A stretch of 38,995 nt of DNA from a bacterium. Lineage in GTDB: Bacteria; ARS69. Position numbers and translations under genes: made by a program. The stretch is taken from the NCBI GenBank assembly GCA_025774805.1, contig JALGZR010000053.1:1-38995 (forward strand), given 5' to 3'. The notes beneath the pieces were generated by a model. That model saw only the letters and a list, made by a program, of their open reading frames with translations, searched no databases and was not told the DNA's origin. The stretch's first letter is position 1. Each line of letters starts with the position of its first letter. This document shows positions 4,455 through 37,554 of the stretch, piece after piece.

Positions 4455-4498
4455 CGCACGTTCCATGAGATCATGAACGGGCTGCCATCAGGAAGAGA

Positions 4499-4530
4499 GC
4501 CCCGGACCGGAGGACCGGTCCGGGGTTTCT
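4499..4530 (+). terminator. Rho-independent terminator
   Basis: A perfect 11-bp GC-rich stem (4500-4510 pairs with 4515-4525) has a 4-base AGGA loop and is followed by TTTCT. It lies 45 bases after the first propeller gene and before the second, so the two paralogs are probably separate transcription units. Confidence 0.8.
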
Positions 4531-4562
4531 CGATCCTCCGCCCTTCGGAAAGGAAGCTCCCC

Positions 4563-7127
4563 ATGAGTCATCCGATTCTCCCGGCCCCGGTCCGGCGGGC
4601 CTCGGCCCTGACCGTTTTCCTCCTGCTCGCGCTGACGCTGACCGCGGGACCCGCCGCTTCCGCCGGGAGAACCGGGATCGGGGACGAGATCGCCACGAAC
4701 CCGGTGACCGACTGGTACGAGCGAATGGGTGCGTACTACGAGGCGCGTCCCGAGCTGAAGACGACCCGGGGGAGCGGCTGGAAACCGTACAACCGGTTGA
4801 AGTGGTTTCACGAGCAGCGGATGGTCGGAGGAGAGCTGCCTCCCGTCGGGGCCCGATGGAATGCGTGGAAGGTCCGGCAGGAGCGCGCGCGCCGGTCGGG
4901 ATCGGGCCGGAGCGCGCCTACCTGGTTCACCCTGGGCCCCACGAACTTCGCCGGACGCATCCTGGCCCTCGCGTTCGATCCTACGGATCCGGCGACGATC
5001 TACGCCGGATCGGCGAGCGGGGGGCTGTGGAAGTCCACCGACTCCGGCGGCACCTGGACGCCGTTGACGGATGAGCTGCCCACCCTCGCCGTGGGAGGAG
5101 TCGCCGTCAGTCCGTTCGATCCGGATCTCCTGGTCATCGGGACCGGCGAGGCGACGAACAACATCGACCGGGTCACCGGCGTCGGGATCCTGCGCTCGAC
5201 CGATGGCGGGCTCACCTGGCAGACGACCGATCTATCCTACCCGATAAACGGACACCACGGATTCCACTTCGTGGAGGCGGGGCCGAACGGTACGTTCCTG
5301 GCCGGCGCCACCGACGGTCTCTGGCGCTCGTCGGACGGGGGCGTGACGTGGGAGGCGGTGAAGTCGGGCGACGACTACTACGACGCGAAGTGGATGCCGG
5401 GCAATCCGAACCGGGTCTACACGGTCAAGGGCGGAGGGAACTCCGGGAACAACGTGAAGGTCTCGACCGACGACGGGCTCACATGGTCGAAGGCCGGCAC
5501 GGGCCAGCCCTATTCCTGGGAGATCGGGAAGTCCAAGATCGCCGTGACGCCCGCCGACCCGAACATGATCTACGCCCACTACACGCACCCGTCGGAGCAC
5601 AACACCCTCGGCATCTACCGCAGCACGGACGCCGGCGCGACCTGGACCGCCCGGAACGTCGGCGTCCCCATCGCGGGCTCGCAGGGGTGGTACAACCTCT
5701 CGATCGTCGTCGACCCCGATGACGCGGATCACGTCATCAGCGGAGGGATCCGGCTCTATCGATCCACGAACGGGGGGAGTTTCTGGTTCCAGGTGGGGGG
5801 GAACGTCCACGTCGACCACCACGCCATCGCCTACGAGCCCGGCTCGACGACCACGCTGTACGTGGGAACCGACGGGGGAATCTGGCGATCCACGGACGAC
5901 GCGTCGACCTGGACCGGCCGAAACTCGGGTCTCGTGACGTATCAGTTCTACGACATCTGCACGAACAACAACCCCGACACCCCTTACTACGTGATGGGAG
6001 GGACGCAGGACAACGGAACCGACAAGTGGTCCGGAACCACGACCTGGAGCAACGGTCTGTTTGCCGACGGCATGGTCTGCAACATCGACCCGACCAACGG
6101 CACGAGGGTGTATGCGGAGATCCAGCAGGGGGAGCACTACCGAAACACGAACTCCGGGACGGGAAGCTGGACCTGGATCAACAGCGGGTTGCCCGGGGGA
6201 GGACGGTGGGTCGCGCCGACCGATCTCGATCCGCACGACGGCCAGCGCCTCTTCACCGTGTCGGGCGCCAATCTCTACCGATCGATCAACGGGGGGAACG
6301 GTTGGGCGCTCGTCGACAACCGCAACCCCAAGTGGATCTCCATCAGTCCGGTCGACGGAAACGTCGTCCTGACCCTGCTCGATGGGCACGTCCGGTACTC
6401 GACCAACGGGGGCAGTGGCTGGATCGACTCGGCGGTCTTCGGGTTCCCCACCGGAACGTCGCTCCGCGTACTCGCCCACCCGACGGATCTGAACACCATC
6501 TTCGTGACGTTTTCGGGATACGCCGAGGGGCTCGCGCACGTCGCCATGTCCACCGATCGGGGAGACACCTGGATCGACGTCACGGGGGATCTCCCGTCCC
6601 AGCCGGTGAACGACATCCTCGTGGATCCGGACGAGATCACGAACTGGTACATCGCCACCGACGTCGGGGTGTGGAAGAGCTCCAACGGCGGCACGAACTG
6701 GTACCCCTTCGAGGTCGGTCTGCCCAACGCCGTCGTCTCCGATCTCGAGATCCAGACCCACCAGCGGAAGCTCGTCGCCGGAACGCACGGGCGGGGGGCC
6801 TGGGAGATCGACATTCCTCTCGGGGGCACGGGTGCTCGAGTCGACGGCGGTCCCGCCGTTCGCTCGCTCATGCTCGACGCCCCGTGGCCCAATCCGGTCG
6901 CGGACCGCACCCTCCTCCGCTTCGCCGCGTGGCACGCGGGGACCGTGAGCCTCGACGTCTACGATGTCGGCGGTCGGCGCATCGTCCATCTGGTCGAGCT
7001 CCCGGTGGGTGACGGCGTCGTCCGGACTACCCCGTGGTTCCCCGATGGCGTCCCGAACGGCGTCTACTTCGCGGTGCTGCGGGCCGGGGAGCGGAAGATC
7101 ACCCGGAAGCTGGTCGTCGCGCGCTGA
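4563..7127 (+). CDS. Secreted sortilin/VPS10-like beta-propeller protein with FlgD/type-A-like C-terminal domain (copy 2)
   Basis: An 854-residue paralog of the preceding protein with the same architecture: signal peptide (hydrophobic core about residues 13-28, ending ASA), the conserved segment GSGWKPYNRLKWFHEQRMV, BNR/sortilin-type repeats throughout, and a C-terminal ~85-residue domain with PNPVADRT, VYDVGGR and GVYFAVLRAG. The ATG at 4563 is chosen over one at 4473 because the earlier start would place the terminator hairpin inside the coding region; GGAAAGGAAG precedes 4563. Long conserved blocks, such as YYVMGGTQDNGTDKWSGTTT in both copies, show a tandem duplication followed by divergence. 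The function is probably extracellular or surface binding; no enzyme motif is seen. Confidence 0.85.
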   Translation: MSHPILPAPVRRASALTVFLLLALTLTAGPAASAGRTGIGDEIATNPVTDWYERMGAYYEARPELKTTRGSGWKPYNRLKWFHEQRMVGGELPPVGARWNAWKVRQERARRSGSGRSAPTWFTLGPTNFAGRILALAFDPTDPATIYAGSASGGLWKSTDSGGTWTPLTDELPTLAVGGVAVSPFDPDLLVIGTGEATNNIDRVTGVGILRSTDGGLTWQTTDLSYPINGHHGFHFVEAGPNGTFLAGATDGLWRSSDGGVTWEAVKSGDDYYDAKWMPGNPNRVYTVKGGGNSGNNVKVSTDDGLTWSKAGTGQPYSWEIGKSKIAVTPADPNMIYAHYTHPSEHNTLGIYRSTDAGATWTARNVGVPIAGSQGWYNLSIVVDPDDADHVISGGIRLYRSTNGGSFWFQVGGNVHVDHHAIAYEPGSTTTLYVGTDGGIWRSTDDASTWTGRNSGLVTYQFYDICTNNNPDTPYYVMGGTQDNGTDKWSGTTTWSNGLFADGMVCNIDPTNGTRVYAEIQQGEHYRNTNSGTGSWTWINSGLPGGGRWVAPTDLDPHDGQRLFTVSGANLYRSINGGNGWALVDNRNPKWISISPVDGNVVLTLLDGHVRYSTNGGSGWIDSAVFGFPTGTSLRVLAHPTDLNTIFVTFSGYAEGLAHVAMSTDRGDTWIDVTGDLPSQPVNDILVDPDEITNWYIATDVGVWKSSNGGTNWYPFEVGLPNAVVSDLEIQTHQRKLVAGTHGRGAWEIDIPLGGTGARVDGGPAVRSLMLDAPWPNPVADRTLLRFAAWHAGTVSLDVYDVGGRRIVHLVELPVGDGVVRTTPWFPDGVPNGVYFAVLRAGERKITRKLVVAR

Positions 7128-7139
7128 TTGTTGTCCGGA

Positions 7140-7173
7140 GGGCGAAGCGCCGATACAATCCGGCGCTTCGCCC
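7140..7173 (+). terminator. Perfect hairpin after the second propeller gene; terminator without a clear U tract
   Basis: A 13-bp perfect inverted repeat (7140-7152 with 7161-7173) surrounds an 8-base loop and starts 12 bases after the stop codon. The following bases are CTCCTTC rather than a T run, so intrinsic termination would be weak; it may instead protect the mRNA 3' end. Confidence 0.5.
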
Positions 7174-7203
7174 CTCCTTCGCGCCGCCGCCGGGAGTCTC
7201 CCG

Positions 7204-8580
7204 ATGAGATCGGGTCTCTCTCTCTCCGTCACCGTCCCGGCCGCTCTTGCGGTCCTGAGCGCCGCCCTCCTCGCCCTCGCCTCCTGCGGGGCGGAGAGCG
7301 ATCGACCGAACGTCCTTCTCATCACCGTCGACACCCTTCGGCCGGATCACCTGGGGGGACACGGTCACCCGCGAGGTCCCTCGCCGGTGATCGACGCGCT
7401 GTTCGCGCAGGGCACGGCGTTTTCCGGACACACCGTGCCGCGGGGCCAGACCTGGCCGACCCTGGCCTCGATCCAGACCTCCCGGTATCCGGTCTCTCAC
7501 GGTGTGCGGAAGAACGGGCAGACCCTGCCCGAGGGGGTGCTCGGCCTCGCCGAGATCCTGAGGAGGGAAGGGTACGAGTGCGGCGCCTTTCTCGGAAACA
7601 GCGGAGGGGTCGGGTGGAAGGGATTCACACCGGTGCTTGAGCAGCGCGATCGGGATCGAGCTCTGGTCTCCCGCGCGCGCGGCTGGATCCGGGGCAACCT
7701 CGCGGGTCCTTACTTCCTCTGGATTCACCTCTTTTCGCCCCATCGCCCGTTCCAGCCTCCGCCCCCCTTCGACGAGCTGTACGATCCCGATTACGCGGGA
7801 CCCATCGACGGAAGCATCGAGCAGATGAAACGGATTGCCGCCGAGCGCACCGATCTTCCGCCCTCGGACCTCGAGCACATGCTCGCGCGCTACGACGGGG
7901 AGATCCGCTACCTGGACGGGATCCTCGCCGATCTTCTGCGGGTCACCGAAGAGACGGACACGGAGGACCGGACGCTCGTCGTCTTCACCGCGGATCACGG
8001 CGAGGAGCTCTACGCGCGGAATCACTACTTCAGCCACTCCGCGTCGGTTTACGACACCGTCCTCCGGGCGCCGCTCCTCCTCGTCTGGCCGGGAAAGATC
8101 GATGCGGGACGTTGGATTCCCGGCATCGTGGAATCGATCGACATCGCTCCGACGATTCTCGACCTCCTCGGGATCGCCCGGCCGGACGCGTTCGAGGGGC
8201 GGAGCCTCTCCCCCCAGATCGCCGGCGGGCTCCCGCCCGACCGCTCTCGGATGGCCTTCTCCGAGCTCGAGGACAAGGTGGTCTCCCTCCGGACCGAGGA
8301 CTGGCGGTACATCCACAATCCGAGCGGCTTCGGCTTTCCCCTTTCCCCGGACGGGGCGGTCTATCCGATCGGGCGGGAGGAGCTGTACGACCACCGCGAC
8401 GACCCGCGGGAGAGGAGAGACGTCGCGGGAGACAGAGAGGAGGTCGTCGCCCGCCTGCGGGAGGTCGTGGCGCGCTGGCAGTCGGAGCATCGGTGGGAGG
8501 AGCGGAGCCGTCTGCACGCCGAGAGGGAGGTCCCGGAGCACATCCGGGAGGCGCTGGAGGCGATCGGCTATGTGCAGTAA
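7204..8580 (+). CDS. Lipoprotein of the sulfatase/alkaline phosphatase superfamily
   Basis: A 458-residue protein starting at ATG 7204, with GGGAG about 8 bases upstream. Residues 1-28 form a lipoprotein signal with lipobox LASC (C28), so it should be membrane-anchored. The sulfatase fold is shown by VLLITVDTLRPDHL (metal ligand D43), the ADHGEE motif (D264, H265) and a following FSHSASVYD segment. At the position where sulfatases carry the Cys or Ser that becomes formylglycine, the sequence reads TWPTL, so the nucleophile position is T83. Threonine is the nucleophile in phosphoglycerol- and phosphoethanolamine-transferase relatives, which makes true sulfatase activity doubtful. The substrate is unknown. 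The carboxypeptidase gene follows after 61 bases, suggesting a possible cell-envelope role. Confidence 0.82.
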   Translation: MRSGLSLSVTVPAALAVLSAALLALASCGAESDRPNVLLITVDTLRPDHLGGHGHPRGPSPVIDALFAQGTAFSGHTVPRGQTWPTLASIQTSRYPVSHGVRKNGQTLPEGVLGLAEILRREGYECGAFLGNSGGVGWKGFTPVLEQRDRDRALVSRARGWIRGNLAGPYFLWIHLFSPHRPFQPPPPFDELYDPDYAGPIDGSIEQMKRIAAERTDLPPSDLEHMLARYDGEIRYLDGILADLLRVTEETDTEDRTLVVFTADHGEELYARNHYFSHSASVYDTVLRAPLLLVWPGKIDAGRWIPGIVESIDIAPTILDLLGIARPDAFEGRSLSPQIAGGLPPDRSRMAFSELEDKVVSLRTEDWRYIHNPSGFGFPLSPDGAVYPIGREELYDHRDDPRERRDVAGDREEVVARLREVVARWQSEHRWEERSRLHAEREVPEHIREALEAIGYVQ

Positions 8581-13293: not shown

Positions 13294-14121
13294 ATGGGTG
13301 ACAAGGACCATCCCCACCTCTATTTCGTCTCCGACGGTCGCGGGGGAACGTGCGAGCGCCTGGTGAAGGCTGCCCTCGTTCAGTTCCGAGGCCAGGAGTA
13401 CCGGATCGTCTCCCGACCCAATGTCCGTACCTCGCGCCGCATCCGGTCCATCGTGAGCGAGGCGGCCGAGAAGCAGGGCATCATCTTCTACACGCTCGTC
13501 TCCGACGCGACGCGCCAGTCGATGAGCCGGTACGCGCGGGACGCGCTCGTCCCCACGGTCGATCTTCTCGGGCCCACGTTTCGCGCCCTCCATGACATTT
13601 TCCACGTTCAACCGCAGTTCGTACCCGGCCTCTTCTACGAGTCGGAGCGTGAGCACTTCGATCGCGTCGACGCGATCGACTACACGCTGACTCACGACGA
13701 CGGCCAGCGTCCCCACGAGCTGAAGGACGCGGACGTCATCCTGGTCGGCGTATCGCGGGCGTCCAAGAGCTCCACCTGCTTCTATCTGGCCTACGAGGGG
13801 GTCCGGGCGGCGAACGTGCCGCTCCTGCCGGACATCGAGCCGCCCCGGGAGCTCCTGGACATCGATCCGGGCAAGGTGATCGGACTCACGGTGAACGTGC
13901 TCCGCCTCCTCACGGTCCGGGAGTCGCGCGTCTCGAGCTTGCACCTGGGAACGATGCCCTCCTACCTCGACAAGCGGGCGGTGGCACGGGAGATCCTCCA
14001 CGCCAACCGTCTGATGGACCAGCACGGTTGGCGACGCATCGACGTCTCCTACATGGCGATCGAAGAGATCGGCAAGGAGGTCATGCGCCTGCGGAGCGGC
14101 GCCGAGGAGAAGGAGCTCTAG
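13294..14121 (+). CDS. ppsR: Phosphoenolpyruvate synthase regulatory protein (DUF299 family)
   Basis: A bifunctional kinase/pyrophosphorylase that switches PEP synthase or pyruvate phosphate dikinase off by ADP-dependent phosphorylation and on by phosphorolysis. The 275-residue length from ATG 13294 matches the family. It begins with HLYFVSDGRGGTCERLVKA, carries the P-loop-like motif GVSRASKS at about residues 152-159, and ends with the conserved VSYMAIEEIGKEVM helix. A longer in-frame extension upstream overlaps the nuclease gene and is not conserved-looking, so this start is preferred. The target dikinase or synthase gene is not in the window. Confidence 0.92.
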   Translation: MGDKDHPHLYFVSDGRGGTCERLVKAALVQFRGQEYRIVSRPNVRTSRRIRSIVSEAAEKQGIIFYTLVSDATRQSMSRYARDALVPTVDLLGPTFRALHDIFHVQPQFVPGLFYESEREHFDRVDAIDYTLTHDDGQRPHELKDADVILVGVSRASKSSTCFYLAYEGVRAANVPLLPDIEPPRELLDIDPGKVIGLTVNVLRLLTVRESRVSSLHLGTMPSYLDKRAVAREILHANRLMDQHGWRRIDVSYMAIEEIGKEVMRLRSGAEEKEL

Positions 14122-14136
14122 CCCGCATCGATCACC

Positions 14137-14217
14137 GCTCTCTGCTGCTGCGGCGGCTCGCCGCGTCCGGCTTCGTCGTCGCGGCGCTACCGGACCGCGA
14201 CGAGCCTGGTGAGCAAT
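14137..14217. repeat. Dispersed palindromic element, copy a
   Basis: This intergenic copy carries CTCTGCTGCTGCGG at its left, the core CCGGCTTCGTCGTCGCGGCG at 14167-14186, and the right end CGAGCCTGGTGAG at 14201-14213. The right end is the reverse complement of the CTCACCAGGCTC end seen in copies b and c. It lies between two convergent genes, so it may also affect transcript ends. Confidence 0.65.
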
Positions 14218-14230
14218 GCAGGCTACGGGG

Positions 14231-15982
14231 TCATTCGGGGGTCCGCCGCGGGTCCGGCTTAGGGCTCTCCTCGGTCGGTCCGTCGTCTCCGGCGCCCGCG
14301 TCGACCCCCCCGAGATACCCCAGGGCCCGTAGCCGCTCGTAGATCGCGGCGTCCTGCTCGGGGTCCCGCGGCGCCCCCGCCGCGGGCTCCGCCAGGTCGA
14401 GGGACGACTCGTCAATGGTCTTCACCTCGGCCGGCTGACGAAAGAGATCCACGAGAACGTCGCCGTCCATCTGCTCGAGCGCGGGCAGACCGTAGAGATG
14501 AAGCAGCGTCGGCGTGATGTCGAGGATCGAGGCCTTCGCCCGTGTCTCCCGGTGGGCGATCGAGGGCCCGGCCGCGATCAGGACTCCCATCCTCCGATGC
14601 TCCGGGAGCTGGCGGGTCAGGGGGCGGATGAACGTGTCCTCGAGCCACGCATCGCACAGCAGCCTTCGATCCGCCCGTACGAGGATCTCCGGAAGGGTGT
14701 CGACCCAAGGGCCCGGATAGATCTCCCGGGTCGCGACGACCTGCGTGAACACGGGCTTCCCGTCGCTCCGACTCCTCAACTCCGCGAGCGCGCCCATGAC
14801 GGAGCGGGTCACGGAGTCCCGTTCCGCGGGAGCCACGATCCCCTCCGGCTCGCGGCCGACCACGTTGAGCCGGATCCCCGCGAAGTTCCCTTCGGCCAGC
14901 TCGCAGTATGCGACCGTTCGACGCATGTCGATATGGCGCAGGTCGTCGCGGCGCTGGTCCCGGCGGACCTCGGCGAACGCCCGGTTCATGTCGACGCGTC
15001 GGTTGGTGACGCCGGAGCGAAGCGAGAGAAGGCCGAGGTGGGCGAGGCAGCGGTTCACGCTGAGCTTGTGGTAGTAGACGCCGAAGCCGTGATCGGACAG
15101 AAGGAGGATGTCGGTGTCGGGACCGGCGGCGCTGCGAATCCTCCCCAGTGCATCGTCGAGCAACTCGTGGTGCGCCGCTACGGCATCGGCCAGGTCCCCC
15201 CGGTAGGCCCGGTGGGAGAGCACGTCGAGACTCTTGTAGACCACCATCAGGAGATCCCAGTCGGACCGCTCGACCAGGGCGCAGACGAGATCCGTCTTCA
15301 GATCGTGGTTCGTGCGGAGGATCTCGGGGGACGGCTCCCGATCCCGCTCGCGCCACACGTCGAGCGCGGGAACGAATCCCGTTCTGCGGAGGCGGTCCGC
15401 CAGCGCCGGGGGATGCGTGTAGACGGCATCGCGAGGCGAGAGCATCCCCGCGATCATGACTCCGTCGATCGGCTCCGGAGGATACGTGACCGGAACGCCG
15501 ACGATGTGGGTCCGCCGGCCGAGGTGGTTCAGAATCCGCCAGATCGGTGCGGCCCGATTGTCCCGCGAGCTGATCAGGGTGAGGTCGTACGAGTTCGTCT
15601 CCTGGCCGAAGAATCCGAGGACCCCGGTCTTGCCCGGCCCCTTTCCGGTGACCGCGGACACCCAGGCCGCCGAGGAGATCGGGATCATCGTCGACTCGAG
15701 CCGAAGGCTCACGCCCTCCTCGATCAACGCCCGCACGTGAGGGAGTCGCCCTTCCTCTATCATGGGGTCGATCATGTTGTACGTCGCCCCGTCCCAGCCG
15801 ACGACGATCACGCGGCGGTCCGGCGAGCGGGGCGGTCCGAGAAACGGGGCGACGGCCTCCACGATCCCGGAAGGGGAAGACGCGTCCGCGGCGATCGACG
15901 GACGCGAACCGCCCGGGAGGAGGAGCGCCCCGCCGACCAGCGCCCCGGCCGCGGCCCGGCTCATCCCTTTACCGGGCCTCAT
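14231..15982 (-). CDS. Type I phosphodiesterase/nucleotide pyrophosphatase-like protein, exported
   Basis: A 583-residue protein of the alkaline phosphatase superfamily. GGGAGAG precedes the ATG at 15982. The N-terminus has a positively charged start and a short hydrophobic stretch resembling an export signal. Family features: VIVVGWDGATYNMID (first metal site), PISSAAWVS at the nucleophile position (Ser/Thr), a central LLMVVYKSLDVLSHR segment, and LLLSDHGFGVYY with the DHG metal ligands. It continues with a long C-terminal part ending in a low-complexity, proline-rich tail. Proteins of this kind hydrolyse phosphodiester or phosphonate bonds; the substrate cannot be read from sequence. The next minus-strand gene lies beyond a 200-base gap containing a 20-bp palindrome. 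Confidence 0.8.
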   Translation of the reverse strand: MRPGKGMSRAAAGALVGGALLLPGGSRPSIAADASSPSGIVEAVAPFLGPPRSPDRRVIVVGWDGATYNMIDPMIEEGRLPHVRALIEEGVSLRLESTMIPISSAAWVSAVTGKGPGKTGVLGFFGQETNSYDLTLISSRDNRAAPIWRILNHLGRRTHIVGVPVTYPPEPIDGVMIAGMLSPRDAVYTHPPALADRLRRTGFVPALDVWRERDREPSPEILRTNHDLKTDLVCALVERSDWDLLMVVYKSLDVLSHRAYRGDLADAVAAHHELLDDALGRIRSAAGPDTDILLLSDHGFGVYYHKLSVNRCLAHLGLLSLRSGVTNRRVDMNRAFAEVRRDQRRDDLRHIDMRRTVAYCELAEGNFAGIRLNVVGREPEGIVAPAERDSVTRSVMGALAELRSRSDGKPVFTQVVATREIYPGPWVDTLPEILVRADRRLLCDAWLEDTFIRPLTRQLPEHRRMGVLIAAGPSIAHRETRAKASILDITPTLLHLYGLPALEQMDGDVLVDLFRQPAEVKTIDESSLDLAEPAAGAPRDPEQDAAIYERLRALGYLGGVDAGAGDDGPTEESPKPDPRRTPE

Positions 15983-16120
15983 GAGAGCTCTCCCGGTCGG
16001 CGTTGGTGGATCGTGCCTCGGACATCGCGATTCTTGCGGGGAAGGGGCGGATCGGGACGTTCCGGGGAGGGGGACACACTCGTCTCATGATAGGGGATCG
16101 AACGGGGTGAAGCCAGTCGG

Positions 16121-16170
16121 CATATCTCACCAGGCTCTGCCGCAGCCGCAGCAGAGCCTGGTGAGATATG
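16121..16170. repeat. Dispersed palindromic element, copy b: perfect 20-bp inverted repeat
   Basis: Positions 16121-16140 and 16151-16170 are exact reverse complements around a 10-base spacer. The outer arms contain CTCACCAGGCTCTGC and its complement. It begins 12 bases beyond the stop of the minus-strand methyltransferase-like gene, where it could act as a strong 3' hairpin without a U tract. It is the most symmetrical member of the family. Confidence 0.8.
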
Positions 16171-16181
16171 TCGGCGAGGGT

Positions 16182-18416
16182 CTACCAGGCCGATCTCCGC
16201 GCGTACAGCCCCCCGGCGACCGCGTAGAGGACCGCGGTCAGCAGCAGCGTCGGACCGAACCCGTACGTGAACGCCAGGAGCACCGCCAGAGAGGAGCCCA
16301 GCACCGAGGCGGCTCCGTTCACCGCGTATCCCCAGTCGACGAGCGGTCCCACCCGGAGCCCGCCCTTCGGAAACGGCATTCCCATGAAGAGGCCGAGAGG
16401 AGCCACGAGGCCCGCGGTGATCAGCATGCGGGGACGCATCGTCCACGTGGTGAGTCCGTCGATGACGCCGCGGAAAACCGAGACGTCGAGGATCAGCCAC
16501 GCGAGGATGGCGAGAAACGCGACGCGTGCATCCACCCGGGGCGCGAGGCGACTGCCGATCCCCGATCCGATCAGGAGGGCCAGCAGGATCGTGGCGATTC
16601 CGTGCACGGCGGGTCCGATGAAGAACGTGTACTTCTGAATCAGAACGACCTCCGCCATCATGAACGCCATCCCGAGCACGAAGAAGTAGAGCCACGACAC
16701 GGGACGGAGCTTCTCTCCCTCTCGGAAGCAGGGCAGCAGACAGAGGGGAACGGCCCCGAGGAGGACGACGCCCATGCTGAGGAGGACGAGGAGCTTCGCC
16801 AGAGGGAAGCCCTGGACCTCTTGGAGCGGGGACACGCGATCGAAGGACGCGGTCCGGAAGTTGCGCCACCGGCCGAGCTGGGCGGTGTAGGGCCGGTCGT
16901 CGCGGCAGGGAGAGAGATCGATGTCGCTCTCCGCGGCGGCGCTCCGCCATCCCTCGCGAACGATCTTCTCGACCCGGTTCCCCGCGTGACGTTCCGGCGG
17001 AGGCCAGAGCAGGTGGATGGTCTCGTCGAGGTCGGGCCCGAGCGTCCCGTAGCCGAAGGCGCGGAGCTCATCGGTCAGGGGGCGCTTGGACAGGAGGATC
17101 ATCTCACGCCGCATCTGCGGGAGGGCGTACACGGCGAGGTGATCCTGGACGTTCTCGACTCCCAGCTCGCGGAGCCCCTCCAGAGCCTCGGCCACGAGCC
17201 GCGCCCCGTAGAACTGGTGCTCCATCATCAGAAAGCCGTCGTCGGTGAGGGCGGTCCAGTAGTCCTGAAACGCCTCCACGGTGAACAGGTAGTTCTCCGC
17301 CATGGCGAAGGCCCCGGAGGCCAGAGCGGCGAACGTGTTCGAGCTGAGGGAGTAGATGATGTCGAAGCGGCCCGGATGGCGTCGAACGTACGCCCGGGCG
17401 TCCTCGGTGGCGACGTGAACGCGGGGATCCTCGTAGATCCGTCCGGTGAATCCGGCGAGCTCTCCATCGATCATCATGTGATTGACGTGCGGCACGACCT
17501 CGACGGCGTGGATCTCGGTGCACCCCCCCTGGAGCGCCTGAAGGACGTCGGTTCCTCCCCCGGAGCCGAGGGAGAGGAACGTGCAGGAGTCGAACCGATC
17601 CATGAGGAACTGCACGTCGATGCCGAACTCGAAGCGAAGGGAATCGGGTCGATCCCAGTTGCCGTCGAACTCGTACACGGGCGAGTTGGCGGCGTTGTCG
17701 ATCTCGAGACCCCGGTAGCCTTCCCCGAAGTCGTAGAGCTTGATCTTCGCCATGGCGTCCCAGTGCTCGTAGATCACGGGAGCCCGCTCCTCCCGGTCCC
17801 GTCGCAGGAGGCCTCCCGCCGTCTCTCCGAGGAGGATCGCGAGGAGCATCGAGACGACCGGGACCGCCCGACGCCAGCCGCGAAGCGTGACCGATGCCGC
17901 GAGAAGCACCGGGAGGGTGATGGCGAACGTCGCCGTGGGGGTGCCGAGCCGGTTCATCGCGAGAAACGCGACCTGGACTCCGAGGCCGGCCCCGAGCAGG
18001 TCGGCCATGTAGAGGCGGGGGATCCGCTCCCACCCCCGCCGGAACAGGAGCGCGAGGGCCATTCCCCCGAAGAGGAAGGCCGCTCCCAGGAGGAGCAGCG
18101 CCAGCGCCCAGCGCGCGAGGGCGAGGGGATCGCCGAGTATCCGACTCATGTCGACGTCGAGTGCGAACACGAGCGGGGGGCCCGCGAGCCCGGCCAGACC
18201 CGTCCCGGTGAGCAGCCAGCCCACGGTCGACTCCCGTTCGAGGGTCGACCCGAGGCGAACGGCGAGTGCTCCCAGTCCGAGCCCGAGAACCGCGAGGGAG
18301 AGAATCAGGAACGCGAAGGTATAGAAGAACTCCGCGGAGAAGAGTCGCGTCCACGTCAGCTCGAGAGAGACGAGCGTGACGGAGATCGCGGCGACGAGGG
18401 TGGAGGGCCGACCCAC
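16182..18416 (-). CDS. Multi-pass membrane protein with spermidine-synthase-like methyltransferase domain
   Basis: A 744-residue protein starting at GTG 18416, with GGAGG 6 bases upstream. The first ~210 residues form about six to seven hydrophobic helices (opening VAAISVTLVSLELTWTRLF, typical of this family). A Rossmann domain follows with a SAM or decarboxy-SAM pocket motif FLSLGSGGGTDVLQAL and an HAVEVVPHV acidic-loop segment. The last ~200 residues are again several membrane helices. This fusion of membrane helices with a spermidine-synthase fold is common in environmental bacteria and mostly unassigned. Polyamine synthesis should not be assumed: no speD or partner gene is nearby. The ~20-kDa membrane halves could transport or present a lipid substrate, which is inference only. 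Confidence 0.8.
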   Translation of the reverse strand: MGRPSTLVAAISVTLVSLELTWTRLFSAEFFYTFAFLILSLAVLGLGLGALAVRLGSTLERESTVGWLLTGTGLAGLAGPPLVFALDVDMSRILGDPLALARWALALLLLGAAFLFGGMALALLFRRGWERIPRLYMADLLGAGLGVQVAFLAMNRLGTPTATFAITLPVLLAASVTLRGWRRAVPVVSMLLAILLGETAGGLLRRDREERAPVIYEHWDAMAKIKLYDFGEGYRGLEIDNAANSPVYEFDGNWDRPDSLRFEFGIDVQFLMDRFDSCTFLSLGSGGGTDVLQALQGGCTEIHAVEVVPHVNHMMIDGELAGFTGRIYEDPRVHVATEDARAYVRRHPGRFDIIYSLSSNTFAALASGAFAMAENYLFTVEAFQDYWTALTDDGFLMMEHQFYGARLVAEALEGLRELGVENVQDHLAVYALPQMRREMILLSKRPLTDELRAFGYGTLGPDLDETIHLLWPPPERHAGNRVEKIVREGWRSAAAESDIDLSPCRDDRPYTAQLGRWRNFRTASFDRVSPLQEVQGFPLAKLLVLLSMGVVLLGAVPLCLLPCFREGEKLRPVSWLYFFVLGMAFMMAEVVLIQKYTFFIGPAVHGIATILLALLIGSGIGSRLAPRVDARVAFLAILAWLILDVSVFRGVIDGLTTWTMRPRMLITAGLVAPLGLFMGMPFPKGGLRVGPLVDWGYAVNGAASVLGSSLAVLLAFTYGFGPTLLLTAVLYAVAGGLYARRSAW

Positions 18417-20735: not shown

Positions 20736-20900
20736 TTTCTCACCAGTCTCTGCTGCGGCAGCGGCAGAGCCGCGCCCGGCTTCGTCGTTGCGGCGCTTCC
20801 GCCCTGCAACGGGGCTACGGCCGCGCCTCGGGCGAAAGCCCCCCATCTCCTCGCCAGACACGCCTGTCCGCGGCCTCGCGACGAGCCTCGTGAGAAATGC
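20736..20900. repeat. Dispersed palindromic element, copy d (longest)
   Basis: The left end TTTCTCACCAGTCTCTGCTG (20736-20755) and the right end CGAGCCTCGTGAGAAA (20882-20897) are imperfect inverted repeats about 165 bases apart. The interior holds the core CCGGCTTCGTCGTTGCGGCG (20776-20795), shared with copy a, with one base different. It sits between divergently transcribed genes and ends ~30 bases before the regulator promoter. No transposase is encoded inside, so a non-autonomous or REP-like element is likely. Confidence 0.7.
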
Positions 20901-23484: not shown

Positions 23485-24678
23485 ATGGCCGATCCCCTGA
23501 TCTCCTCACACCCCGGGATCCTCGCGATCCTGGCCGGCATCGCCTCCTTCTTCTTCTGGCTCGAGCGGAAGACGCGCTGGAAGCTCTTCCACTTCTTCCC
23601 GCCTCTCCTTTTCATCTACATCTTGCCCGTCCTTCTCTCGAACTCGGGGGTGATCCCCACGCGATCCCCCGTCTACGATTTCATGGGGGCGAATCTCCTT
23701 CCGTTCTTCCTCACCGTAATGCTGCTGGAGGTCAATCTGCTGGCCACGGTGCGCGTGATGGGGAAGGGGCTCTTCGTCATGCTCCTGGGGACACTCGGCG
23801 TGGTGATCGGAGCACCTCTCGCGTTCGCCTGCGTGAACGCCGGGCTCGATCCGGGGGCGTGGAAGGCGTTCGGAGCTCTCGCGGGAAGCTGGATCGGCGG
23901 AACCGGGAACATGCTGGCGGTGGCCCAGATGGTGGAGCTCGACGATCACTCTCTCCAGTACGGGTATGCCGTGATCGCCGACAACGCCGTCTACCTCATC
24001 TGGCTGCCGATCATGCTCTCGTCGAAGAACTTCGCGGGGGTCTTCCATCGTTTCACGCGGGTTCCCGCCGAGCGGCTCGAGGAGCTCGAGGCCGCCGCCC
24101 GGAAGCTGACGAGCGACAAGGGCGTCCCCGAGTTGCGCCACTTCCTCTACCTGGCGTTTCTCGGATTCGTCGTGACCTGGATCGCGAGCTCGGCGGCCGG
24201 GCTGATTCCCTCGCTGCCCCTCGGATCCGAACAGCCGCTCGTCACCGCGAGCACCTACCGGATCCTGATCGTCACTCTCCTCGGGATCTCCCTGTCGTTC
24301 ACTCCCGCGAGTCGCATTCCCGGGTCCCACGCGCTCGCGATGGCTCTGGTCTACCTGTTCGTCGCGCGCATGGGAGCCAAGGCCGATCTGTCGGACGTGT
24401 CCGGGTCCGTGTTCTGGTTCCTGACCGGGGGCTATCTCTGGATCTTCATCCACGGTGCGTTCCTCGTGGGGGCGGCTCGACTCTTCCGCGTCGACGTCCA
24501 CACCGCGGCCATCGCGTCGGCGGCGAACATCGGGGGCGCCGCGTCCGCTCCGATCGTGGCGGCCTATCACCGCCCGACGCTCGTTCCGGTGGCGATCCTC
24601 ATGGCCATGATCGGTTACGCGATCGGGAACCCCGCCGCGTTCGGGGCGGCCCTGCTCTGCCGCTGGGTGGGGGGGTGA
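23485..24678 (+). CDS. DUF819 family integral membrane protein
   Basis: A 397-residue protein with about ten to eleven hydrophobic helices; GGGAG precedes ATG 23485. Family segments include FFPPLLFIYILPVLLSN, the glycine-rich GSWIGGTGNMLAVA, ADNAVYLIWLP, and the C-terminal ANIGGAASAPIVAAYH and GYAIGNPAAFGAA. DUF819 proteins resemble transporters of the anion/cation-proton type, but no substrate is established. A soluble loop at about residues 194-222 is encoded by the exact segment (24067-24150) that reappears at 31395-31478. The gene sits alone after the ahcY terminator and before a zone of gene remnants. Confidence 0.85.
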   Translation: MADPLISSHPGILAILAGIASFFFWLERKTRWKLFHFFPPLLFIYILPVLLSNSGVIPTRSPVYDFMGANLLPFFLTVMLLEVNLLATVRVMGKGLFVMLLGTLGVVIGAPLAFACVNAGLDPGAWKAFGALAGSWIGGTGNMLAVAQMVELDDHSLQYGYAVIADNAVYLIWLPIMLSSKNFAGVFHRFTRVPAERLEELEAAARKLTSDKGVPELRHFLYLAFLGFVVTWIASSAAGLIPSLPLGSEQPLVTASTYRILIVTLLGISLSFTPASRIPGSHALAMALVYLFVARMGAKADLSDVSGSVFWFLTGGYLWIFIHGAFLVGAARLFRVDVHTAAIASAANIGGAASAPIVAAYHRPTLVPVAILMAMIGYAIGNPAAFGAALLCRWVGG

Positions 24679-25848: not shown

Positions 25849-27912
25849 TCACTCGACGGCCGGGAACCCGATCCAGCTCCAGTATCCCAGAAACGCCCAT
25901 AACCAGAGTACTAGTAAGGAGAGCGCCACGGCCACCATTCCGTGCTTCATGAAGTCCCTCAGCGTCACCAATTGTTCCCCGGTCCGAGGGTCCTTGGCCA
26001 TGGCATAGGCGATCGCGTTGTTGGGAGTTCCGATGATCAGCATGTGCGCGAATGATGACGCGAACGCGGTGGCAAAGCCGACCGTCCAGGGATGGACCCC
26101 CGCGAGCTTTGCCATGGGGACAGTGATCGGCCCAATGGCGGCGACGGTGGCGCCGTCGCTCATGAAGTTGGTGGTCAGCCCGGTGAACAGGCTTGCCGCC
26201 ATGGCCAGGCCCATCCCTTCCAGCATCGAGTCCGGAAGCAGGGAGACGAAGCCATCCGCCAGATACAGCGCCGCTCCCGTCACGGCAACGCCCTTCCCGA
26301 TGGCGCTGGCGGCCGCATAGAGGAACACCACCTCCCACGGAATCCGCACGATGTCCCTCCAGGACATCACGCGCAAGAGATTGAGCGCGACCAGGCCCAG
26401 AATCACCGGACCTCCCATACCCAGGGAATTGCAGGAGGTGATCCACAGCAGAATGACGGTGACCAAAACGGCCGCCGTTATGTACTCGTTCTTCGTCATC
26501 GGACCGATCCGTTCGGAGGCGTTGCGCACCGTGCGGGACACATCGAGCTTCTTCACACGGATCTTTCTGCGGAACACGAAGTAAAAGTACGTCCCCATGA
26601 CCACAGCCATGACAGGGACGTAGGGGAGCCCGTACTTGACCCACTGCCCGAACGAAGGTGCAACGCCGTAGTCTGCGAGAATGCCGATCATGACTGCGTT
26701 TCGCCCGCCGGCCGCCGGCGAACCGGGACCACCGATGTTGGCCACGAAGCAGACGGACAGCACGAAGAGGACCATCAACGGGCGGTCCTGCTTCAATCCC
26801 GTCCCGCGCAAGGTGGTTACGTAGACCATTACGAACAGCGGCATGAGGAATGCGATGAGGGCGTGCTCCGATACGAAGGAGCAGGCCACGGCGAGTCCCG
26901 GCAGGAAGAGGAACATCAACAAACCGAGGTTGCGCGCGGATCCCAACAGTAGAATCCCGAGGCGTCGGTCCAGGCCGGTCTTGGTGATCGCTCTGCTCAT
27001 GGCCAGCACGCCGAAGATGAAAATCACCGCGTCTTTAGCAAAGGCCTGGGCGATGTCGTCCGGGCGCAGGATGTTGCACAGATACATGCACGCGGCGACG
27101 AACAGGGCCGTTACCCCTACCGGGATCGCCCCCGACGCCCAGAACAACGCCGCCACCATCAGGACCCCAAGCATCACCTTCGCCCGGCGGGCGACCTCGT
27201 CGGGCGTGAGGCCACGCTCCACGGGGGTGCCGTCCCCGGAAGAGCTGGCCTTCTTCAGCTTGTACTTTCTGCTGTAGTGGTCCGGAATGGTGTCCCCTCG
27301 GTTCATGTTCATATAGTCCGCGTATCCGAAAATGGCATCGGGCATCCCGATCGCGGCGGCGGAGGATACAGACTTCGGGGCCGACAGCAGGTCGAGCAAC
27401 CGTTTCGGGGCCGGGCCGAGCAACAGCGCTGCCATCAGAAGCGCCCCGATCAGGATGAAGAGAGGTCTTGAATTGTGGCTGCCGAGGAGCCACGACGCGA
27501 ACGTCGTCGACTTCCGAACAGGGATCTCGTACCGCACCCTCGCGTGGACCGCCTGAGCACGCGCCTCGTCCACGGTCTCGAGCAGGCGGGCCAGGTCCAC
27601 CGGCTTCTCCATGTACCGGAACACATCCAAGCGGCCCGCCTCGGCCGCCGACTCGAGGCTACCGAAAGCCGTCAGCATGATCACCTGGACCTCCGGGCGG
27701 AACTCCTTGACGATCTTGAGCGTCTCCTCACCGCTCAGGCCCGGCATCTTGCGATCCAGCAGCATCACGTCGATCTCGAGATCGATACGGATCATCTTCA
27801 CGGCGTCGTCGCCGTTGGCCGCCTCCACAGTCTCGTGTCCCCGCAGGTTGAGCCGCCCCGCGAGTGACGACCGGAACTCGTGCTCGTCGTCGACGAGAAG
27901 GATCTTCGGCAT
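25849..27912 (-). CDS. Receiver domain fused to an SLC13/DASS-type membrane transporter
   Basis: A 687-residue fusion. Residues 1-120 are a receiver domain with D8/D9, phosphoacceptor D53 (MLLDRKMPG), T81 and K103 (MEKPVD). After a linker, residues ~150-680 form about twelve membrane helices resembling divalent-anion/sodium symporters (ArsB/NhaD-like superfamily). Conserved landmarks include FIFGVLAMSRAITKTGLDRR, the first ion-site loop CSFVSEHALIAFLMP, a second TNFMSDGATVAAIGP, and IIGTPNNAIAYAMA. The two SNT motifs that bind sodium and carboxylate in DASS carriers are replaced by SEH (348-350) and SDG (585-587), so ion or substrate use is probably altered. Phosphorylation of the receiver could gate transport or make this a transceptor. 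The gene lies between a CBS protein (8-base gap) and a receiver protein. Confidence 0.88.
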   Translation of the reverse strand: MPKILLVDDEHEFRSSLAGRLNLRGHETVEAANGDDAVKMIRIDLEIDVMLLDRKMPGLSGEETLKIVKEFRPEVQVIMLTAFGSLESAAEAGRLDVFRYMEKPVDLARLLETVDEARAQAVHARVRYEIPVRKSTTFASWLLGSHNSRPLFILIGALLMAALLLGPAPKRLLDLLSAPKSVSSAAAIGMPDAIFGYADYMNMNRGDTIPDHYSRKYKLKKASSSGDGTPVERGLTPDEVARRAKVMLGVLMVAALFWASGAIPVGVTALFVAACMYLCNILRPDDIAQAFAKDAVIFIFGVLAMSRAITKTGLDRRLGILLLGSARNLGLLMFLFLPGLAVACSFVSEHALIAFLMPLFVMVYVTTLRGTGLKQDRPLMVLFVLSVCFVANIGGPGSPAAGGRNAVMIGILADYGVAPSFGQWVKYGLPYVPVMAVVMGTYFYFVFRRKIRVKKLDVSRTVRNASERIGPMTKNEYITAAVLVTVILLWITSCNSLGMGGPVILGLVALNLLRVMSWRDIVRIPWEVVFLYAAASAIGKGVAVTGAALYLADGFVSLLPDSMLEGMGLAMAASLFTGLTTNFMSDGATVAAIGPITVPMAKLAGVHPWTVGFATAFASSFAHMLIIGTPNNAIAYAMAKDPRTGEQLVTLRDFMKHGMVAVALSLLVLWLWAFLGYWSWIGFPAVE

Positions 27913-31385: not shown

Positions 31386-31394
31386 GCCCACCCG

Positions 31395-31478
31395 GCCGAG
31401 CGGCTCGAGGAGCTCGAGGCCGCCGCCCGGAAGCTGACGAGCGACAAGGGCGTCCCCGAGTGGCGCCACTTCCTCTAC
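31395..31478 (+). repeat. 84-bp copy of an internal DUF819 gene segment
   Basis: Positions 31395-31478 match 24067-24150 with a single mismatch (TTG to TGG, changing Leu to Trp). The copy keeps the coding frame AERLEELEAAARKLTSDKGV over this stretch and diverges at both ends. It interrupts the beta-helix gene. The source lies 7.3 kb away on the same strand. An orphan downstream reading frame ends at 31532. Confidence 0.85.
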
Positions 31479-31690
31479 CGGTTCCTCGGGCTAGAGAGGC
31501 GCGACGCTCAGAAGACCCTATCCAGCCTGTGACCACACGAACGATCATGGCTTGGAGAGCCCGCCTCGCTGGACTCACTGCTGAGAAGGAGTCCGCCAGG
31601 AAAGCCGTTAGCAGAGCGACCCGATCCAACGATCCGCCATTTTGGAGACGGATCCTGGGGATGGTTCCCGCCACCGCATGTCAGGTGAGC

Positions 31691-34499: not shown

Positions 34500-36329
34500 C
34501 TATTTCTCTACTTCAAGTCCACCCTTTTGGTGCCGTTCCTCGACCTCGAGGATACGTCGGATATTGGCGATCAGTCGTTCCTCGTCCACCGGTTTGTCCA
34601 TGTAGCCCTCGGGTGGCCGGGCCGGCCGGTCGTAGATCAGGCTCCGGAACTCCGGATGGCCGGTGACGATGCAGACGGGGATCTCTTCGAGTCCATCGGT
34701 CCGTCGAAGCTCGCAGAAGGCATCGATGCCGTCCTTGCCGGGCATGGAAAGGTCTAGCGTGATGAGATCCGGCTTCTCGCGCGCCGCCACGGCGATGGCT
34801 TCGTCGCCGTCCGACGCCGTTATCACCTCAGCGCCCGCGTCCTCGAGCATCGTGGTGAGGAAGACCCTCACGTCTTCCTCGTCGTCGACGACCAGGATCC
34901 GGCGGCCCTGCAGTGCCGCTTCTCGCATCTCTTCCTCCTCGGCGGCCGGGGCCGCAGGAACGGCCTCGGCCGGGGCCGCGACCTCAACCGGCTCCTCTTC
35001 CACGGCCGGTTCCTCGAGAACCAGAGCGTCCGCCACCAGGTCGACGAGTTGCCTGACCTCGCAATCGATTTTGTAGTGCTTGATCAGGTCGCCCAGACCA
35101 TCGACACAGTTGTGGCAGGACGTGACGATGTACTTGGCCCCGGTGGCCGCGATCTCGTCGGCCTTGACCTTCCCCGACGCGAGTCGCCGGGGAGTGTACT
35201 CGGACATCGACATCGCGCCCCCACCGCCGGTGCAGCAGAGGCCTTCCAGGCGATTGTGCTCCAGCTCCTGGAAGTCATTGGTCACCACGTTGATCAGCTC
35301 GCGAGGCTCCTCGAAGAGCCCGCAGCTGCGAGCGTTGTTGCACGAGTCGTGGAACGTGTATCGCCCGGAGTTCTTCGACTTGTCGACCATGATGCGGCCC
35401 TCCCTGATGTAGCGCAACATGGTCACGACGGAGCTTTCCATGATGAAGGGGTTGTCGGCTCCCGACCAGTTGACCGCCTCGCACCGGGTCGAACGATATC
35501 CGTGACCGCACTCCGAGATCACCACGCGCTCGGCCCCGAGGTTCGCGGCGGATTCGTAGACCCGCTTCCCACAGGTGCCGCCGAGCAAGTCGTCACCTGA
35601 GAACAATCCGAAATTGGTTTGGTCCCAGCCGTCGCTGGTCATCGTCCAGTCCTCTCCCGCAGCGTAGAAGATCAGCGCAGCCTTCATGATCGTGCGCGGG
35701 TCGTACTTCACCTCGCGTGGATTGATGACGTAGACGATCTTGGCGCCCTTCTTGTCGATCGGGATCGCAGCCTTATTGTGGCCCAGGTCTTCCTCCAGCT
35801 CCTCGGACATCCACTCCAGCGTGTCGATGTAGTCCTCTTTCAAGACCCCCATCTGGTTGCCGATTTCCCATTGATCCTTGCTGACCACCCGCACGCCCTC
35901 GGGCATGACCCCCACGTGGGTGAGCAGACCGCGCATGATGCGATTCAGCGTCGCGGTGTCCACACCCATCGGGCAGTTGAAAGTACATCGACGACAGTTG
36001 GTGCACGTTCCGAACGCGATGTCCTTGAGCTTGTCGAGGTCGTCGTCGGTCAGCTGGCCGTTGGCCTTGACCCACCACGGGAAGACTCGTCCCGTCCAGT
36101 CGTGATTGCGCTTGAAGATCTTGCGGAGCTGATCCGCCTTGTAGCTGGGGGTCATTGTCGGGTCGTCGGGATGTGTCATGACGTAGTGGCACGAGTCGTT
36201 GCACATTCCGCAGTGGACGCAGCCCACCAGCGATGCGACGACCTGCCGGGTCAGCTTCTTCTGAAGCTGCTCTTCCATCATCCGGACTTTGCGGTCCCGG
36301 GTGTCCTTGGCCACGATCTCCTCCGTCAT
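34500..36329 (-). CDS. HdrD/DsrK-type Fe-S oxidoreductase fused to a C-terminal receiver domain
   Basis: A 609-residue fusion. Two [4Fe-4S] sites come first: C37-x2-C40-x2-C43-x3-C47 and C109-x2-C112-x2-C115-x3-C119. A first CCG-like domain (~195-290) lacks the full cysteine set. A second (~325-415) has the complete C330-x34-C365C366-x38-C405-x2-C408 signature of heterodisulfide reductase HdrD, DsrK and HmcF, which hold a special cluster acting on thiol-disulfide substrates. A Glu/Ala/Pro linker (438-468) leads to a receiver domain with D482/D483, D526 (LITLDLSMPG), T556 and K579. The start overlaps the cytochrome b gene stop as ATGA. With that membrane protein it resembles HdrDE or DsrMK electron-transfer pairs. 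Fusing a receiver to such an enzyme implies control by phosphorylation. Confidence 0.92.
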   Translation of the reverse strand: MTEEIVAKDTRDRKVRMMEEQLQKKLTRQVVASLVGCVHCGMCNDSCHYVMTHPDDPTMTPSYKADQLRKIFKRNHDWTGRVFPWWVKANGQLTDDDLDKLKDIAFGTCTNCRRCTFNCPMGVDTATLNRIMRGLLTHVGVMPEGVRVVSKDQWEIGNQMGVLKEDYIDTLEWMSEELEEDLGHNKAAIPIDKKGAKIVYVINPREVKYDPRTIMKAALIFYAAGEDWTMTSDGWDQTNFGLFSGDDLLGGTCGKRVYESAANLGAERVVISECGHGYRSTRCEAVNWSGADNPFIMESSVVTMLRYIREGRIMVDKSKNSGRYTFHDSCNNARSCGLFEEPRELINVVTNDFQELEHNRLEGLCCTGGGGAMSMSEYTPRRLASGKVKADEIAATGAKYIVTSCHNCVDGLGDLIKHYKIDCEVRQLVDLVADALVLEEPAVEEEPVEVAAPAEAVPAAPAAEEEEMREAALQGRRILVVDDEEDVRVFLTTMLEDAGAEVITASDGDEAIAVAAREKPDLITLDLSMPGKDGIDAFCELRRTDGLEEIPVCIVTGHPEFRSLIYDRPARPPEGYMDKPVDEERLIANIRRILEVEERHQKGGLEVEK

Positions 36330-37024
36330 GCCCTGGAGTAGGGGAAGCTACCCCTATGACCCAGAGCCTTGCCGATCCACCACCGCGAAAACGGGTAGTA
36401 CAAATAGTGCGAAATCTTCGAGAAGGGGACGTACAGCAAGAAAAAGCTGGTCAGCAGCAGGTAGGCCACCAGCCAGTTCTCGCTCGCAAACCGCGACGCG
36501 CCGGCGATGTGGGCCTGCGTCGCGACGCCCACGGCGAACCATACGGTGAGCATGATCAGCGAGAAGTAGTCGTCCGGAGAGCTGATCAGCCGCATCACCG
36601 GTCGGAACAGCCGGCGCAGCAAACGGTAGATGGCGACCAAAAAAGCGGCGGCGATCGTTCCGCCTACGATCCATGCGACCACTGGAATCTGCAGCGCGCC
36701 GGGGGCGATGGTGCTGACGAATGCCAATCCGATACCCGACACGACGCCGAGATGGAAGACGACAAAGCTGATCCAAAACGCAAACCCTTTGCCCGCCCTC
36801 GTGCTCTCCATGCTCCACGGCATGGCGACGTTGCCCAGCGAGTACATCCCACCCTTCCGGGCGTTGGTAAGCTCGGGTTGACCCGGCGCGGAGCGGTCCT
36901 TCGCTCCCTTGAACCTGAACAACCACCGAATTCGAAGGGCGTAGACGACCCCCATCACCACCAGGGCGGTCCAGTGGATCACCTCCACAGTCATCAGAAG
37001 AGCGCTTGGTTCGTCATGCGGCAT
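36326..37024 (-). CDS. Cytochrome b-like membrane subunit (NarI/DsrM/HdrE type)
   Basis: A 232-residue protein with about five membrane helices. ATG 37024 has AAGGGAG 9 bases upstream; GTG 37030, overlapping the macro-domain stop as GTGA, is an alternative. Histidines inside or next to helices (H19, H93, H174 and H208, counted from the GTG) can serve as heme b ligands; the first lies in EVIHWTALVV, the last in FSKISHYLYYPF, as in NarI-like proteins. It should pass electrons between the quinone pool and the Fe-S partner encoded immediately downstream (4-base overlap). It is short for DsrM and typical for NarI/TmcC-like subunits. Confidence 0.85.
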   Translation of the reverse strand: MPHDEPSALLMTVEVIHWTALVVMGVVYALRIRWLFRFKGAKDRSAPGQPELTNARKGGMYSLGNVAMPWSMESTRAGKGFAFWISFVVFHLGVVSGIGLAFVSTIAPGALQIPVVAWIVGGTIAAAFLVAIYRLLRRLFRPVMRLISSPDDYFSLIMLTVWFAVGVATQAHIAGASRFASENWLVAYLLLTSFFLLYVPFSKISHYLYYPFSRWWIGKALGHRGSFPYSRA

Positions 37025-37026
37025 CG

Positions 37027-37554
37027 TCACGCACTCCCTTCGATCTCTTTCTTGAATGGTTCGTACTCCCGCTCGTCCATGGTCACGAACAGAACCTCCT
37101 CGAGCGTCGTGGGGTTCTCGAGGTGTTTCGTGACGGTCTCCACCATCACGCGAGCGCAGAGGTCCATGGGCACCTGGTAAAGGCCCGTGCCGATGGGGGG
37201 AAAGGCGAGACGCTTGATGCCCTTCTCGTCGGCACGGCGCAACGCGTTCTCGGTGACGCTGCGGAGCTTCCCCTCCTCGTCCTCTTCCCTGAACTTTGGA
37301 CCGTTGACGTGGATTATGTAGGCCGCCTTGAGGATCCCCGCCTGGGTGACGACCGCCTCGCCCGTGGGGCAGCTACCGACCTCATCCAGCTCGTGCTGGA
37401 TCACGATGCCGCCACGGCGCTGGATCGCGCTGCCGAAGCCCGCGCCGAGCTTCATATCAGAGTCGATGTCGAAGACGAAAGCCTCGACATCCAGGGCGGT
37501 GAGATCCCCCCGTATCAGCCGAACGATCCGTTCGCCTATCCTCTGCTCGACCAT
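37027..37554 (-). CDS. Macro-domain protein with a divergent ADP-ribose loop
   Basis: A 175-residue protein, all one macro domain: GDLTALDVEAFVF, the GAGFGSAI loop, CPTGEAVVT, YIIHVNGP, and the phosphate-binding IAFPPIGTGLYQ-like segment (AFPPIGTGLY). These domains bind ADP-ribose or NAD derivatives and often remove ADP-ribose from proteins. The usual NAAN motif, whose Asn residues position substrate and water, reads FDIDSD here, so hydrolase activity is doubtful and binding alone may be the role. It lies between the Rrf2 regulator and the cytochrome b gene in operon B, which suggests sensing of NAD-derived signals (inference). Confidence 0.88.
   Translation of the reverse strand: MVEQRIGERIVRLIRGDLTALDVEAFVFDIDSDMKLGAGFGSAIQRRGGIVIQHELDEVGSCPTGEAVVTQAGILKAAYIIHVNGPKFREEDEEGKLRSVTENALRRADEKGIKRLAFPPIGTGLYQVPMDLCARVMVETVTKHLENPTTLEEVLFVTMDEREYEPFKKEIEGSA

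Follow-up and report, generated by a model that had tools for sequence, protein, structure and literature searches.

A family of receiver-DASS fusion proteins associated with sulfate respiration, candidate anion carriers under two-component control

The minus strand of the window (the whole stretch of 38,995 nucleotides analysed here) carries a gene coding for a receiver domain joined to the N-terminus of a membrane carrier, which raises the question of whether the receiver controls the carrier or the carrier acts as a sensor, and of which anion is concerned. The open reading frame is a real gene, with an ATG start preceded by AGGAGG, a GC3 of 0.84 and homologues in many genomes. The initial annotation had described a canonical receiver with D53, T81 and K103; these residues were confirmed, and with D8 and D9 the receiver pentad is intact. 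Pfam scores of both domains exceed the cut-offs, which are 30.2 bits for Response_reg and 27 bits for Na_sulph_symp, and the score with the NCBIfam dass model TIGR00785 (182.6 bits) falls below its cut-off of 198.6; the carrier is therefore divergent. By Pfam, the protein contains no DNA-binding or enzymatic output domain, the transporter being the only domain other than the receiver, no SPX domain at the N-terminus, where the receiver stands instead, and no fused kinase domain, the kinase being a separate gene. The predicted architecture is related to sulfate/dicarboxylate carriers, with an N-terminal bacterial phosphorylation switch.

Table 1 Features of the receiver-DASS locus (positions in the window).
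Feature	Position	Strand	Evidence
Receiver-DASS fusion, 687 aa	25849..27912	-	Pfam, AlphaFold2, 65 homologues
Receiver (REC) domain, aa 4-114	27571..27903	-	Pfam PF00072 Response_reg, 74 bits; CheY-like fold
Putative phospho-acceptor codon D53	27754..27756	-	D in 64/65 homologues; codon checked
DASS/SLC13-type transporter domain, aa 237-682	25867..27204	-	Pfam PF00939 Na_sulph_symp, 135 bits; fold match
First hairpin-tip motif SEH, aa 348-350 (SNT in VcINDY)	26863..26871	-	Homologue and VcINDY alignment
Second hairpin-tip motif SDG, aa 585-587 (SNT in VcINDY)	26152..26160	-	Homologue and VcINDY alignment
Near-invariant GGPGSPAAGGRN loop, aa 394-405, R404 invariant	26698..26733	-	Homologue alignment
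Sensor histidine kinase, putative dCache, 586 aa	28497..30257	-	Pfam HisKA and HATPase_c
CBS-domain protein, 188 aa	27921..28487	-	Pfam CBS, 40.4 bits; 8 nt upstream of fusion
Stand-alone receiver protein with C-terminal extension, 166 aa	25323..25823	-	Pfam REC, 102 bits

Structure prediction, suggested in the initial annotation as a check, gave an AlphaFold2 model (62-sequence input, mean pLDDT 85.3, pTM 0.82) with a CheY-like domain and a full DASS fold. The carrier part matched NaDC3 with a Z score of 33.4 over 450 residues, which assigns it to the DASS elevator fold, as well as yeast Pho90 (Z 32.9) and the human sulfate carrier NaS1 (Z 32.4), and more weakly DmINDY (Z 30.1) and LaINDY (Z 30.0). 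The receiver part matched CheY-like domains with a Z score of about 22.

The order of transcription is kinase, CBS protein, receiver-DASS and second receiver, the genes being separated by 9, 8 and 25 nt. The Cache kinase of the initial annotation was upheld as a HisKA/HATPase_c kinase, its Cache call scoring 24.7 bits, below the Pfam curated cut-off of 45; its true start may be a codon later than the TTG. In the sensor region of this kinase, Y199, W204, Y221, R225, H229 and R246 were kept in all 51 aligned kinases, and a comparison of the sensor domain with solved structures returned matches to the kinase core only. The neighbour described as a CBS pair has one CBS domain by Pfam (a homologue shows two), and the receiver protein was found as described. 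Among the loci where the contig extent allows the check, the kinase was in its operon place in 45 of 51, the CBS gene in 26 of 51 and the downstream second receiver in 52 of 61. No DNA-binding output was present in the core operon, sigma-54 regulator genes lay near the fusion in 13 loci, and a promoter scan of the operon gave nothing above chance. The position of the kinase gene, two genes upstream, suggests that the fusion receiver is phosphorylated by this cognate kinase.

On another contig of the same genome (C149, about 13400-16490) the operon occurs a second time in decayed form, with about 81-83% DNA identity. This copy lacks about aa 172-447 of the carrier, and of its kinase the C-terminal half alone was found; a real pseudogene, a strain mixture and an assembly fault are the candidate explanations. 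Next to the fusion operon there is often a second, unfused DASS whose motifs are SDH/ADG and which has its own kinase and receiver-CBS proteins. This unfused family (locus L010, 1480-3435; locus L068, 13798-15657; other loci) has a conserved GGARN loop; with receiver-CBS proteins and Cache kinases on its flanks, it forms a second two-component-linked DASS module. Elsewhere in the window, an HmcF/TmcB/DsrK-like Fe-S/CCG electron-transfer protein with a C-terminal receiver (aa 478-590) is encoded at 34500-36329 on the minus strand, and its neighbours are a NarI-like gene (36326-37030), a PAS kinase and a stand-alone receiver. The region seems to code for a Tmc-type complex controlled by a two-component system, and the protein would be a second receiver fusion to respiratory machinery in the window. 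Repeats were also seen. An 88-nt stretch of a DUF819 membrane-protein gene occurs at 24064-24151 and, with 98% identity, at 31392-31479, in a broken NosD-like region 7.3 kb from the other copy. A 43-nt sequence (core TTTCTCACCAGGCTCTGCTGC) is present in four related copies at 14115, 16110, 18427 and 20723, spaced by about 2.0-2.3 kb and one of them with an inverted partner, perhaps as a dispersed repeat; the stretch 20738-20900 is found again, at 90%, on contig C149.

A genome scan yielded 65 loci, of which about 62 are full or near-full relatives; the loci come from Zixibacteria, Desulfobacterota, Planctomycetota, Gemmatimonadota, Calditrichota, Acidobacteriota, Poribacteria and other phyla. 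The fused sequences compared, also 65 in number, comprise scan loci, whole-genome relatives and the window, two pairs being one genome reached twice; identity of the homologues was mostly 52-65%. The D8-D9-D53-T81-K103 pentad was retained in 64/65, so that the receiver residues do not vary freely among homologues. SEH was retained in 64/65 and SDG in 63/65, both misses of the latter being truncated or broken frames (L066, L067); the altered loops are not unique to the window's protein. The one true motif exception (SGS, L042) has no kinase, CBS or second receiver gene nearby and comes from a genome without an aprA match, and the one receiver exception (L029) is without the upstream kinase, each being a single case. 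The linker between receiver and carrier is short and partly invariant (W141, G144, R149, P150). A literature search, in which subscription journals were thinly covered, found no description of receiver-DASS fusions.

We compared the carrier with VcINDY and the DASS/SLC13 family (TC 2.A.47), with which it shares the PF00939 match, the full DASS fold, both hairpin serines and the GTPxN loop of the second half. It differs by SEH/SDG in place of SNT/SNT, by R404 in place of a VcINDY proline, by the N-terminal receiver and by the dass score below cut-off. In the profile alignment, with VcINDY residue numbers from our own mapping, SEH and SDG align with S150-N151-T152 and S377-N378-T379, and R404 with the proline three residues past the Gly of the TM5 loop. 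The initial annotation had described both SNT motifs as lacking. The SEH and SDG readings hold, family-wide, whereas loss of the whole motif does not, both serines remaining while Asn is replaced by Glu or Asp and Thr by His or Gly; the protein is therefore filed as DASS-fold and not as a canonical SNT symporter. The substitutions put Glu, Asp, His and Arg in the places of Asn, Thr and Pro of the Na+-coupled VcINDY, and E349, H350, D586 and R404 could give an ion coupling unlike that of VcINDY, for instance by H+ or built-in charge. In the Na+-independent LaINDY, Arg and His stand in for Na+ (PMC7553777); its R159, with E146, and H392 at the Na+ sites offer a precedent for E349, R404 and H350, the coincidence of the sites being presumed only. 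DmINDY, likewise Na+-independent, is H+-coupled (PMC11782487). Neither has a receiver; judged from these two carriers, Na+ independence of the fusion is possible.

All fused proteins formed one clade in quick trees (SH-aLRT 99-100), and the fusion seems to have arisen once. The sister of this clade was a small unfused group of four rows (support 95), in which L092, L093 and the partial L099 carry both SEH and SDG, and L091 carries SGH and GDG. Since unfused sisters have the altered loops, the altered pocket is most likely the older feature and the receiver was joined to the carrier later; an origin of SEH/SDG together with the fusion is ruled out. The family search ruled out also a fusion without unfused near relatives, hinted at by a first scan, and further matches of about 30% identity (G300, G302, G241) were not additional receiver fusions, being separate adjacent genes joined across stop codons. 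The sister operons hold a DASS gene, a kinase and a separate receiver (in L092 at 6466-8130, 4626-6365 and 4167-4610, respectively), so the fusion would have joined existing neighbours. Gene fusion usually joins the genes of partner proteins, and this speaks for an action of the receiver on the carrier.

The window's genome contains dsrAB (dsrA 579.5 bits), DsrO, a DsrK-like gene, HdrA/Qmo-like genes and, at a contig edge, an apparent C-terminus of ATP sulfurylase (Sat; 23.1 bits, just under the cut-off), and a search of this genome for aprA found none. In one phylum with 132 genomes (that of locus L014), the fusion was present in 33, dsrA/B in 52 and aprA in 50; aprA or dsrA/B accompanied the fusion in 33/33 genomes compared to 22/99 without it (Fisher p 9e-17, ignoring kinship). 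Across many phyla, 31 of the 33 distinct carrier genomes tested had aprA or dsrA; in two planctomycete carrier genomes neither was found. The receiver-DASS family is widespread and almost confined to sulfate-respiring bacteria. APS kinase lies beside the operon in three loci (L068, L023, L073) and DsrC in two, both being directly upstream of the operon in L068. The latter locus also encodes, near these genes, a histidine kinase with a phosphonate-binding-type sensor domain (423-2306), possibly an oxyanion sensor, with a paired sigma-54 regulator. This link to sulfate respiration, the apparently single origin of the fusion and the greater age of SEH/SDG are new beyond the initial annotation.

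The fusion is best explained, with a probability of roughly 0.5, as a DASS/SLC13-fold anion importer, most likely of sulfate or a closely related sulfur oxyanion, with an activity under the direct control of two-component phosphorylation. Two-component systems have as their output the domain to which the receiver is joined, which here would be the carrier. The membrane kinase would sense an outside signal by its putative Cache domain and phosphorylate D53 on the cytoplasmic N-terminus of the transporter, and the resulting change in the receiver and the short conserved linker would free or lock the elevator domain. The downstream receiver may share or drain phosphate, and the CBS protein, where present, may report adenylate levels, because activating sulfate costs ATP. 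Yeast has DASS phosphate carriers, Pho87 and Pho90, with a regulatory SPX domain at the cytosolic N-terminus, and removal of SPX raises uptake (PMC7381174). Pho90 is a working precedent for the throttling of a DASS carrier by an N-terminal domain (PMC7381174); it differs from the fusion in having SPX and not a receiver, no histidine kinase and phosphate as substrate.

The initial annotation had left the choice between a phosphorylation-gated transporter and one that senses and signals. In the second case, which we consider unlikely, the DASS part would bind or slowly move an anion and its conformation would control phosphorylation of the receiver or drain the kinase, with the second receiver or other regulators as output. 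The SNT loops altered in all members, the frequent second receiver gene and the nearby sigma-54 regulators would suit such a role, and CbrA (an SLC5-STAC kinase) and Amt-HK are known sensors in which a transporter fold is joined to two-component parts. However, these carry the kinase, on the input side, whereas the fusion carries the receiver, on the output side, with its kinase in a separate gene, and sensing and signalling is for this reason the less likely role. The pocket residues, altered yet strictly conserved, fit equally binding with transport, and the core operon is without a DNA-binding output. The receiver placed on the carrier, the kinase two genes upstream, this lack of a DNA-binding output and the sister clade with separate genes favour phosphorylation gating.

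The carrier may be gated in the same way and import another anion used by sulfate reducers, such as a C4-dicarboxylate, citrate, phosphate or bicarbonate, which again appears improbable. Known substrates of DASS carriers are dicarboxylates, citrate, phosphate and sulfate, and in fold the protein matches NaDC3 and Pho90 no less than NaS1. Sulfate respirers import other anions too, and the co-occurrence with aprA and dsrA therefore shows the lifestyle and not the substrate. Against another anion stand the strength of this tie within one phylum, the APS kinase and DsrC neighbours, and the low-sulfate induction of two genes in a homologous cluster of Desulfobacterium autotrophicum (PMC5840216). 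Three clustered DASS genes in one of our genomes (G277, contig C1) match HRM2_38230, _38270 and _38300 of this organism by spacing, if one short ORF is assumed to be unannotated. HRM2_38230 and HRM2_38300 were reported as high at low sulfate, the same paper stating the opposite response for HRM2_38300 in an earlier sentence (PMC5840216). The D. autotrophicum relative is unfused, with altered motifs (SGH, GDG, and W for R); HRM2_38300 as a receiver fusion is ruled out, being by spacing another, unfused DASS type. The putative DASS sulfate transporters of group Cii (Marietou 2018, PMC5840216) come from the same kind of organism and reach 691 aa, the length of the receiver-DASS protein of locus L100, and differ in that the paper makes no mention of receivers, kinases or CBS domains; TOL2_19410 is a candidate receiver fusion.

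Least probable is a receiver that leaves transport unaffected, as a docking or localisation tag bringing the kinase to the transporter or as a phosphate sink: receivers can be sinks and a second one is present, and against this the phospho-site is kept in 64/65 sequences, and a wide clade has retained the fusion together with a short linker that is partly invariant.

Sulfate respiration begins with the uptake of sulfate, and its rate depends to a major extent on this step (PMC5840216). We found no description in the literature of the control of uptake at the level of the carrier protein, the work found reporting expression changes. With chances slightly short of even, a phosphorelay acts here on a secondary carrier, phosphorylation of the receiver opening or closing sulfate import in sulfate respirers of many phyla through a remodelled, possibly Na+-independent site. 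The SNT ion and substrate site has in the SEH/SDG pair a natural variant that is strictly conserved, and the receiver-DASS family provides, in many phyla, a concrete candidate for a switch of carrier activity. If this is true, the output of two-component systems would reach beyond genes and enzymes and include carrier gating.
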